Under the pieces are notes generated by a model that was given only the letters and a program-made list of their open reading frames with translations, did no database searches and was not told the origin of the DNA. A DNA stretch of 39,658 nucleotides from Thermoplasmata archaeon (GTDB lineage: Archaea; Thermoplasmatota; Thermoplasmata; Thermoplasmatales; Thermoplasmataceae): the NCBI GenBank assembly GCA_021818675.1, contig JAKATR010000055.1, forward strand, positions 1 to 39,658. Direction: 5' to 3'. Position numbers and translations under genes: made by a program. This document shows, in pieces, positions 35,444-38,400 of this stretch (positions are counted from its first letter, which is position 1; every line of letters begins with the position of its first letter).

Positions 35444-35890
35444 TCAAGTTTTGTCATCCTTTAGTAAATCGTTCAACTTTGAGCCCTTATCTATTTTAAT
35501 GGAAACCGATCCCACCACTATAATGTATATCCATGCGAGCATTGAGAAGGCTCTTCCGAATGAATAACTGCTGAACTGAATATGGCCGGATAATGCAGAG
35601 GGAGATATGGGTGGCAGCGCAACAAGACCCGACAGAAGATAGACAATCAGGTTAAATAATGTAAATAACACAGAAGGAAGATACCAGATTTTCAGCCCTA
35701 AAAGGAATACTATTCCTATAACTATGAAGGCGGCAACTTCAATCTCCAGCCAGAATGTCACATATGGATATGCAGAAGGAGAAGCATACAGGTGAGCTGC
35801 TGCATCTATGATAGCAAAACTCAAAATCGTAAATCTAAGAAATTTGATTTTCGAATATCCTCCAGTAATACTTTGAAGAAGTTCGTTCAT
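35444..35890 (-). CDS. Orphan four-segment membrane protein
   Basis: No family recognised. The 148 residues hold four hydrophobic segments (about 17-36, 43-65, 68-92 and 112-131), with a short Ser/Pro-rich outer loop (PPISPSALSGH) before the last. The C-terminus is charged (KIDKGSKLNDLLKDDKT). The topology resembles small DoxX- or claudin-like proteins only in size. A TATA-like TATAATTA lies about 20-27 nt before the ATG, so it is likely leaderless. It is divergent from the DUF835/GvpD-like pair across 190 nt. Confidence 0.65.
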   Translation of the reverse strand: MNELLQSITGGYSKIKFLRFTILSFAIIDAAAHLYASPSAYPYVTFWLEIEVAAFIVIGIVFLLGLKIWYLPSVLFTLFNLIVYLLSGLVALPPISPSALSGHIQFSSYSFGRAFSMLAWIYIIVVGSVSIKIDKGSKLNDLLKDDKT

Positions 35891-36048
35891 TAAAATGATT
35901 ATATTTTCATAATTATAATAGTTTGCCTTTGGAAAGCCTTGTTTTATCTATTTATGGAGAGGTTTACTTTAATAGATACATGAAAATAAGTCTAAATACC
36001 GTTAAAAAAATGTACATACGAAGAAAAGATCAAATTCTTTGGAAGAAA

Positions 36049-36059
36049 ATTTAAATAAT
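36049..36059 (+). promoter_or_regulatory. TATA box of the DUF835/GvpD-like operon
   Basis: ATTTAAATAAT lies 22-32 nt before the ATG at 36081 (16-26 nt before the in-frame GTG at 36075). There is no Shine-Dalgarno motif, so a leaderless start at or near the ATG is likely. Confidence 0.45.
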
Positions 36060-36080
36060 AACTTAATACTTTAAGTGAAA

Positions 36081-36947
36081 ATGATAATTCTTTATGATCA
36101 AGACGGGAGCCATGGTACTATTTTAGATGCACTGATGAAACCATTGGGCATTCCATATAAGATCATGAAGGAGTTTGATGAGTCAGCAATTATTGATGGT
36201 AAAGCTACAAGTTTAATTATATATCTCACAAAGCCGGTTGATGATGATCTGAGAGATTTTCTCATTCTTGATCAAAGAAGTTATCATCTCATAATTTTCA
36301 TGGATAAAGAAATTGAACTTGAGGATTATATTAAGTACAGCTCAGAAAATATTGTCCTGAAAACTAAGGATCTTGAAGAGATGAGGACAACACTCAGGCT
36401 TGCTTTGACAGATAGTAATGTAAGAAGACTCCGCGCTATAAACAATACAAGCATATTTCTTGCAAAGAATGGCCTATATCCTGGAGTTATATACAACACG
36501 GAACCAGAAAAGACAAATCTTTTCCTTTCACTATTATTTTCAGAGAACATAAACAAAGAAAAAATTCTGGTTATTTCAAGAAATAATTTTAGAATGGAAA
36601 TTCCGGAAGTCCTAAATATTGAAAATTTTATTTGGGTCACAGATAGTATAGGGGCCGGAAGAAACAGGCCTGCCAATCTTTCTTTTATTACGGAGACAAT
36701 TCAGAAAAAAATAACGGATGATGGAGCGAACATAATATTTATCGATATTTTTGATCTTCTCATGATTTATCATTCATTCTTTGAGGTGGCCAGAACGTTC
36801 GAGCAGTTGAAGAGCTCTATTATAGAAAGGAATCTATATTTGATAATGGTATTGGACAGGGACGCAATGGAAAAGATACAATATGGGATGATTACGAGAT
36901 TCTCCGAAGAATGGAAAATTGACACGGTGAGGGATCTAAACAGATAG
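36081..36947 (+). CDS. DUF835 protein with receiver-like N-terminal domain
   Basis: A 288-residue protein of two parts. Residues 1-120 alternate strands and helices (IILYDQDG, then SLIIYLTKP, then HLIIFMDKE), like a response-regulator receiver fold, but I see no clear phospho-acceptor Asp. From about 140 to 280 it matches DUF835. KILVISRNNF, FIWVTDS, NIIFIDIFDLLMIYHSFFEVA and LYLIMVLDRDAM are the landmarks: strands resembling a RecA or GvpD core without a Walker A motif. DUF835 proteins are archaeal and of unknown role. The next gene starts 7 nt later with a Shine-Dalgarno motif, so the two act together. A GTG at 36075 is an alternative start. Confidence 0.75.
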   Translation: MIILYDQDGSHGTILDALMKPLGIPYKIMKEFDESAIIDGKATSLIIYLTKPVDDDLRDFLILDQRSYHLIIFMDKEIELEDYIKYSSENIVLKTKDLEEMRTTLRLALTDSNVRRLRAINNTSIFLAKNGLYPGVIYNTEPEKTNLFLSLLFSENINKEKILVISRNNFRMEIPEVLNIENFIWVTDSIGAGRNRPANLSFITETIQKKITDDGANIIFIDIFDLLMIYHSFFEVARTFEQLKSSIIERNLYLIMVLDRDAMEKIQYGMITRFSEEWKIDTVRDLNR

Positions 36948-36954
36948 GTGTTTG

Positions 36955-38400
36955 ATGTCAGATAACAAAGTTTTTGGTTTATTTTCTGAATTTTTCAATC
37001 AGAAATACGGAAAATCTCTAGTTGTAAAGGGGAAACCGGGTTCAGGAAAAACAACTTTTGCCCTTGAATTTACAGGAATGGTTTATAAAGAAAACCCAGT
37101 TCATTATCTCTCCTCAAGGTTTAGTGATGATCCTCTTAAGGAAGTTTTCAGTTTTATAGATGAGGTATCGTATCGATCCAATAAGGACTCAATAGAATTC
37201 AGAGAGGATTTTTCCAAAGTCACGACCGATTCCTTAAAAAAACTTGAACTGATGATCGAGGAAAAACGGGTTAAGTCTTCATCAAGTGGGCTGATATTCA
37301 ATATTCAGGAGGTCATTCCGGAAATTAATGCAATTTATTCCTTTGTGGAAGAGAATGCAGGCACCAATCCAATTATAATTCTTGATTCAATCGAAGCCCT
37401 GGCTCAGAAATACGGCATTGATGAGGGCATTTTATTCTCCGTATTGCAGAATGATCTTGTGGAGCACTCAGGAGTAGGTCTTGTTGTCATTTTGGAAAAC
37501 ACTGGAAATGCACAATTGGAATATTACGCAGATGGGGTAATGAGTCTGGACTACAAAATTATGAACGATTATCTGGTGAGAACTATGAGAATTGAGAAAT
37601 TCCGAGGTCTCCCAATAGGTTCCAATCCAACATTTCTTTATTCTCTTAAGGGCGGAAGGTTCAACGTTTTCCCACAGCCTGAATTCGAATATCCAAAGAA
37701 GATGCTGAAAAAACAAGAAGTAAAGCAAATCAAGCAGTATGAAGTACCTTTAGGAAACCAGGAATTCACACCTTTAACAGGGGGAACAGCAGATGAAGTA
37801 CCTCTGGGCACAGTTGTAATATTACATAGAAAAAATATATCGGAGATTATGGATAATGCGGTAAATCTTTTCAAAAATAATCTCATAAAGAAAACGATAT
37901 CGGAAGGACGGGGTGTTATTGATGTTACTTCCAGCAGCTATGAGACGTCCAGAATGCTCGTCTCAGTTGTTGAATCTAATTTATTGAAACATTACATAAC
38001 TGCTGAAAGGACAAAGCGTTCGAATCCATATGTTATTAATCTGGAAGGTAAGAGTATGTTTGCCGATTTCCCAAATGAGGTCATAGATTTTTTCATGTCT
38101 TCATCAGTAAGGCCAAATATATACTTATTTTCCACAGATTTTCTTTCATTTACATACGGACCAAATTTTATAGGGGAGCTTATCAATATAATTAATGAAA
38201 TCAGGATCACCGGCATAGTAGTCATAGTGGCGGATAATGAATATTATGAGAAATTAAGCCATTATTCCGGACTTACCATACACTTTTCTGAAGTATCAGG
38301 TTCCATTCTGGTTTCATCCGGAACAAATAAGATTTTTGTAATGAACATTGAAAAGGACAAAGAAGGTTGGCCGACTATCAAACTGACAGAGATAAATTAA
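36955..38400 (+). CDS. GvpD/RecA-like P-loop ATPase
   Basis: A 481-residue ATPase of the RecA/KaiC/GvpD kind. The Walker A motif is GKPGSGKT (residues 26-33), and the Walker B is PIIILDSIEAL (Asp144). The first domain ends near 245. A Gln/Lys-rich linker (about 245-280) leads to a second domain with alternating strands (TVVILHRKN, RGVIDVTSS, NIYLFSTDFLSF, GIVVIVAD) but no P-loop, like a degenerate RecA copy. This layout recalls haloarchaeal GvpD, a regulator of gas-vesicle genes; Thermoplasmatales homologs have been called HTR-like. No gas-vesicle gene is in the window, so another role is likely. GGTG (36947-36950) precedes the ATG by 4 nt. Confidence 0.8.
   Translation: MSDNKVFGLFSEFFNQKYGKSLVVKGKPGSGKTTFALEFTGMVYKENPVHYLSSRFSDDPLKEVFSFIDEVSYRSNKDSIEFREDFSKVTTDSLKKLELMIEEKRVKSSSSGLIFNIQEVIPEINAIYSFVEENAGTNPIIILDSIEALAQKYGIDEGILFSVLQNDLVEHSGVGLVVILENTGNAQLEYYADGVMSLDYKIMNDYLVRTMRIEKFRGLPIGSNPTFLYSLKGGRFNVFPQPEFEYPKKMLKKQEVKQIKQYEVPLGNQEFTPLTGGTADEVPLGTVVILHRKNISEIMDNAVNLFKNNLIKKTISEGRGVIDVTSSSYETSRMLVSVVESNLLKHYITAERTKRSNPYVINLEGKSMFADFPNEVIDFFMSSSVRPNIYLFSTDFLSFTYGPNFIGELINIINEIRITGIVVIVADNEYYEKLSHYSGLTIHFSEVSGSILVSSGTNKIFVMNIEKDKEGWPTIKLTEIN

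Follow-up and report, generated by a model that had tools for sequence, protein, structure and literature searches.

It has been proposed that KaiC-like proteins are the principal native hubs of signalling in archaea; to our knowledge, very few archaeal KaiC-like pathways have known partners. Among the closest described systems is the haloarchaeal repressor GvpD, whose P-loop is required to trigger breakdown of the activator GvpE (PMC4390858). For Thermoplasmata, Galperin et al. 2018 name a "DUF835 (iKaiC)" domain and REC-DUF835 proteins (PMC5847659). In Haloferax, motility is affected by the KaiC-like protein CirA; ArlH is homologous to KaiC (PMC13286277).

Here we analyse a locus in a 39,658-nucleotide stretch of DNA from an acid-loving Thermoplasmata archaeon (GenBank assembly GCA_021818675.1, contig JAKATR010000055.1, forward strand), hereafter the window, in which a DUF835 gene stands directly before a gene for a GvpD-like ATPase. 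The pair offers a fixed and apparently ancient two-gene partnership that is open to purification and testing and whose distribution hints at one output. Comparisons were made chiefly with the window's own family (f1) and with the Aciduliprofundum-like sister family (f2).

Layout of the locus and domains of the two proteins

The features of the pair, in window coordinates, are as follows.

36042..36057, + strand: promoter of the pair, an A-rich BRE-like stretch and TATA box, TTTAAATA
36081..36947, + strand: DUF835 protein gene, 288 aa; alternative start GTG at 36075
36081..36416, + strand: receiver-like domain, about residues 1-112
36543..36899, + strand: DUF835 domain, putative inactivated KaiC-like core (iKaiC)
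36946..36950, + strand: Shine-Dalgarno-like AGGTG for the GvpD-like gene, overlapping the DUF835 stop codon
36955..38400, + strand: gene for a GvpD-family, KaiC-like two-domain ATPase, 481 aa
37030..37056, + strand: Walker A, GKPGSGKTT
37372..37386, + strand: Walker B, IIILD
37597..37605, + strand: K215-x-R217, KaiC-type trans-acting finger motif
37858..38394, + strand: second, P-loop-less RecA-like half (GvpD_bR2)

Between the stop codon of the DUF835 gene (TAG, 36945-36947) and the ATG of the GvpD-like gene at 36955 lie 7 nt, so co-transcription is likely, and AGGTG is a plausible ribosome-binding site for the second gene. Both reading frames, their spacing and this site agree with the earlier note made from the sequence of the window. 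The TATA element at 36050-36057 is situated ~27 nt 5' of the first ATG of the DUF835 gene, which is the spacing expected of a leaderless archaeal transcript, and the transcript of the pair is probably of this kind. TTAAATA, with A-rich sequence before it, is unchanged in 11/11 aligned orthologous regions upstream of the DUF835 start. A perfect inverted repeat (ACTTAA-TACT-TTAAGT, 36061-36076), located downstream of the TATA box and ahead of the start codon, is a possible operator; being AT-rich and seen only within the window's genus, it was set aside as evidence.

Residues 155-273 of the first protein match Pfam PF05763 (DUF835) with 104 bits, above the curated cut-off. A first hhalign-type comparison of the DUF835 and GvpD family alignments gave no match because the alignments were too shallow. 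Wider profiles succeeded: DUF835 aligned with the P-loop half of GvpD-like proteins over 120 columns (96.2%, E 2.6e-9), while the reversed-profile controls all stayed below 2% (0.6% for this match). Kinship with the degenerate C-terminal half of GvpD was weak (61.7%, 51 columns), and kinship with the P-loop half is the stronger. At the level of sequence profiles, the match identifies DUF835 as a KaiC/GvpD-type RecA core without the P-loop. Structure prediction points the same way: the best AlphaFold2 (AF2) model of the whole protein (mean pLDDT 88, pTM 0.83; the other four models reach only 69-73 pLDDT) has a RecA/KaiC-like core, its C-terminus falling on KaiC in a Foldseek search. The earlier note had proposed just such a core, and at the domain level it was right. 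This idea was largely known already, as the iKaiC assignment is published (PMC5847659), so that the note's companion remark that DUF835 has no known role is only partly correct.

The N-terminus of the same protein is a different case. Foldseek places it on the receivers 2a9o, 3nhz and 2pln (TM ~0.6 on target), although only the best of the five AF2 models is confident here; the receiver matches include HP1043, called an orphan response regulator in its PDB entry. Sequence methods did not recover this likeness. No Pfam family, PF00072 included, was matched within the first 120 residues, hhalign against a true receiver returned 0.6%, and a PDB profile search retrieved only designed Rossmann-like folds. 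Sequence evidence for receiver homology was accordingly rejected, and the profile kinship with receivers that the earlier note proposed to look for in these residues was not recovered. The acceptor position that follows the third strand is occupied in the window by Thr50; orthologues have D, N, K, E or P there, with Asp in many relatives within the window's family and Glu or Pro in the sister family; Asp6 is invariant across the window's family. Thus, of the receiver-like N-terminus without an evident phospho-acceptor that had been described for this gene, the fold and the unconserved position stand, but several orthologues do carry the Asp. Since sequence methods miss the receiver and its acceptor is unconserved, "pseudo-receiver" is a statement about fold, and it is in fold only that the N-terminus models as one.

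The second protein matches Pfam PF07088 (GvpD_P-loop, 97.6 bits versus a cut-off of 24), PF20440 (GvpD_bR2, residues 302-480, 50.6 versus 27.9) and PF06745 (KaiC, 41.2 versus 26.6). A PDB profile search returned KaiC (E 1e-10) and the KaiC-like SSO2452. The AF2 model is confident (pLDDT 87; all five models 85-87) and has the two-domain KaiC fold, matching full-length KaiC over both domains in Foldseek (E 3.7e-18) with a different inter-domain orientation (rmsd ~20 A). This protein and its DUF835 neighbour both lack a close solved relative. G26, G29 and K32 of Walker A, Asp144 of Walker B, and Lys215 and Arg217 of the finger motif are invariant in 67/67 GvpD-like rows. In KaiC rings, the KxR motif contacts the nucleotide of the adjacent subunit. 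Together with the GvpD_bR2 match, these motifs confirm the previous description of an ATPase with intact Walker A and B and a P-loop-less second half. The KaiC catalytic Glu after strand 2 is not present in the GvpD-like proteins of either family in the 67-row comparison; an invariant Arg55 takes its place. From these features we infer a ring-forming, ATP-binding switch that may have slow or unusual hydrolysis.

Full-length membership of the GvpD family by Pfam could suggest a leftover regulator of a lost gas-vesicle cluster. The window contains no gas-vesicle genes, as the earlier note observed; class-wide, PF00741 matched 0/300 genomes, but the search control was silent, so that this wider absence is only weakly shown. 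The active-site residues have moreover been conserved for long without gas-vesicle genes, and we regard a leftover as very improbable.

Conservation, ancestry and neighbours of the pair

GvpD_P-loop was matched in 241 and DUF835 in 259 of the 300 genomes searched in this class. With matches to both so frequent, the informative trait is their adjacency. In the window's family, a single-copy DUF835 gene lies directly upstream of the GvpD-like gene at 18/18 loci examined (14 first found and four more), and the loci of ASS_A1 and of E-plasma, with 97% identity to the window's protein in the latter, show the same arrangement. In the sister family, the same order was found with gaps of 1-6 nt at 8/8 loci fetched; several other DUF835 genes are also present in these genomes. 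The co-occurrence in related genomes on which the earlier note had staked its joint module is thus found, and the pairing is not incidental. In families f3, f4 and the others examined, DUF835 and GvpD-like genes are not adjacent.

One of the four added loci, the Thermogymnomonas pair (G303), has broken frames. In the Thermogymnomonas acidicola draft genome (L106 3282-5455; L273 6226-8399), the pair contains several and its neighbours are broken too, for which assembly errors are more likely than decay.

In a tree of DUF835 domains, the paired copies of both families fall in one clade (SH-aLRT 99). In the GvpD-like tree, the window's family joins the paired copies of the sister family, with a support of 85 in a quick tree and 100/98 in a careful tree limited to this order. 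Joined in both trees, the two families support an ancestral pair that would predate their split. DUF835 alone was lost several times (in Thermoplasma, Cuniculiplasma-like genera and others) while the GvpD-like gene was retained, and one could conclude that the GvpD-like protein acts alone, as in Thermoplasma, with DUF835 an accessory or independent regulator adjoining it through shared transcription only. However, no DUF835 gene was found without a GvpD-like ATPase in the window's family, and the paired copies form a single lineage in both trees. The pairing also arose a second time, independently and unrelated to the pair of the two families: in G206 (G206:C58, L280 2961-6086), a KaiC-like gene, a DUF835 gene, a GvpD-like gene and a stand-alone receiver gene (PF00072, 85.6 bits) follow each other in one direction, with a GAF-HisKA-HATPase histidine kinase gene nearby on the opposite strand. 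This recurrence speaks for a functional partnership and for a connection to phospho-signalling, and a GvpD-like protein acting alone appears improbable to us.

Several neighbouring genes were considered as further members. A winged-HTH gene (112-114 aa) begins 1-4 nt after the GvpD-like gene at 8/8 sister-family loci. Its orthologue was not found in the window's family, where three weak matches were the only ones, and it is ruled out as a general third member. In G013 (L279 8896-13393), the pair and its winged-HTH gene are followed by another winged-HTH gene, by one for a 187-aa protein that matches no Pfam family and scores weakly with the DUF835 profile, and by one for a single-domain KaiC; the genes after the pair make up a small KaiC-type signalling island. 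The earlier note also proposed as a possible member the following gene, which we reject:

35444-35890, divergent from the pair: small membrane protein gene, found at this place only in the window's genus

Elsewhere other genes occupy that place while the pair persists. In many relatives a gene of 120-130 aa is convergent with the GvpD-like gene (L029 285-659, L007 297-665, and others) and by eye resembles the KEOPS subunit Pcc1. The window has no such convergent gene; a hemB-like gene comes directly after the GvpD-like gene.

Co-distribution with archaellin and proposed function

We compared the distribution of DUF835 with that of archaellin (PF01917), searched in 61 genomes of the window's family. 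The first six genera with DUF835 all had archaellin, and the other genera then known lacked it, except Thermoplasma. A forecast recorded before the result, that of four further genera two would have DUF835 (g94, g95) and two would lack it (g92, g93), was correct in 4/4. By genus, archaellin is now found in 8/8 cases where DUF835 is present and in 1/11 where it is absent, an agreement of 18/19 (Fisher test, P-value 1.2e-4, which ignores ancestry). An archaellin match below threshold, in a frame of 2106 aa (G312), was left out of this count, and in one genome that is incomplete (G320, 66%) DUF835 occurs but archaellin was not found. The exception is Thermoplasma, which has archaellin and the GvpD-like gene without DUF835. 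Beyond the window's family, archaellin occurs in all sister-family genomes listed and is absent from f3 and f4 among the matches listed. On the GvpD tree, the pattern reduces to 3-4 independent changes, each of them either concordant or neutral; with so few, a sign test can go no lower than P-value = 0.25, and the co-distribution is a functional lead that is suggestive only.

Several observations favour a broader reading, in which the pair is a general KaiC-type hub with an output unrelated to archaella, and DUF835 and archaella disappeared jointly from lineages that were streamlined or changed lifestyle. The GvpD-like gene is kept in the archaellin-free genera g5, g7, g9 and g10, which indicates some other role for it; the pair lies outside the archaellum operon; the archaellin match goes back to few independent changes; and the genes clustered around the sister-family loci are of the winged-HTH and KaiC kinds rather than for motility. 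Yet the match was borne out in four further genera that had played no part in framing the idea, and it extends to the sister family, with archaellin, and, among the matches listed, to f3 and f4, without it. We give a hub of unrelated output somewhat less than even odds.

In one genome (G302:C55, L271 3-7637), an archaellin gene lies ~5 kb from the pair, with a Ta1207-family gene (PF19020) between them. This proximity was unseen in the other genomes checked, and physical linkage of the pair to archaellum genes was set aside.

Overall, we suggest that the locus is a KaiC-type two-gene signalling operon, made of an ATPase switch and a pseudo-receiver adaptor and possibly controlling archaella, and we assign this reading a probability of about 0.5. 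Building on the domain make-up, promoter, operon layout, ancestry and archaellin co-distribution observed here, it could work as follows. The GvpD-like protein, in which an active RecA domain is joined to a degenerate one, would be the ATP-binding switch and would probably assemble as a ring. The DUF835 protein would serve as its dedicated adaptor or input, the receiver-like domain being freed of obligatory phospho-acceptor chemistry, and its inactivated KaiC core would dock on the ATPase. The state of both nucleotide and signal may then be relayed to a downstream regulator, as from haloarchaeal GvpD to GvpE; in the sister family, the target may be the winged-HTH protein encoded directly downstream. 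The output that best fits the distribution would be archaellum expression or activity.

Aplasma and Eplasma have been described as having flagellar genes and no identifiable chemotaxis genes, although the Motility section of the same paper names A- and Gplasma instead (PMC3750248). The pair might provide chemotaxis-independent archaellum control in Thermoplasmatales, replacing or preceding Che-type signalling where che genes are lacking; we consider this extension rather unlikely. If the archaellum link were true, it would explain how archaellated cells without chemotaxis genes could control their archaella.

Comparison with known systems

The stable pairing, its ancestry, the winged-HTH third gene of the sister family and the co-distribution with archaellin were not found in the literature examined, and as the coverage of that literature is incomplete, it is not certain that the pairing as such is new.

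Like haloarchaeal GvpD, the ATPase has P-loop and bR2 domains above the Pfam cut-offs and intact Walker motifs, and its gene is followed directly in the sister family by that of a DNA-binding regulator, as gvpD is by gvpE. In contrast to the haloarchaeal system, a receiver-like DUF835 gene stands in front and no gas-vesicle genes were found in the window. The sister-family regulator is a winged HTH whose kinship to GvpE is not established, and the window's family has no adjacent regulator. With the KaiC clock ATPase and archaeal KaiC-like hubs the protein shares the full-length fold, Walker A and B and the invariant KxR finger; it differs from KaiC in having Arg for the catalytic Glu and a second domain without a P-loop. 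CirA and ArlH likewise belong to the KaiC superfamily and have a proposed link to archaella, but they represent other subfamilies, ArlH belongs to the motor, and the part of the source available to us reports no DUF835 partner for CirA (PMC13286277). The closest relatives of the first protein are the REC-DUF835 (REC-iKaiC) response regulators reported in Thermoplasmata and Methanomicrobia, which likewise combine a receiver-like domain with DUF835; the available portion of that report does not mention a stable GvpD-like ATPase partner (PMC5847659). In the window's protein, by contrast, the receiver part is undetectable by sequence and its acceptor position is unconserved, and the DUF835 gene is followed directly by that of its ATPase.
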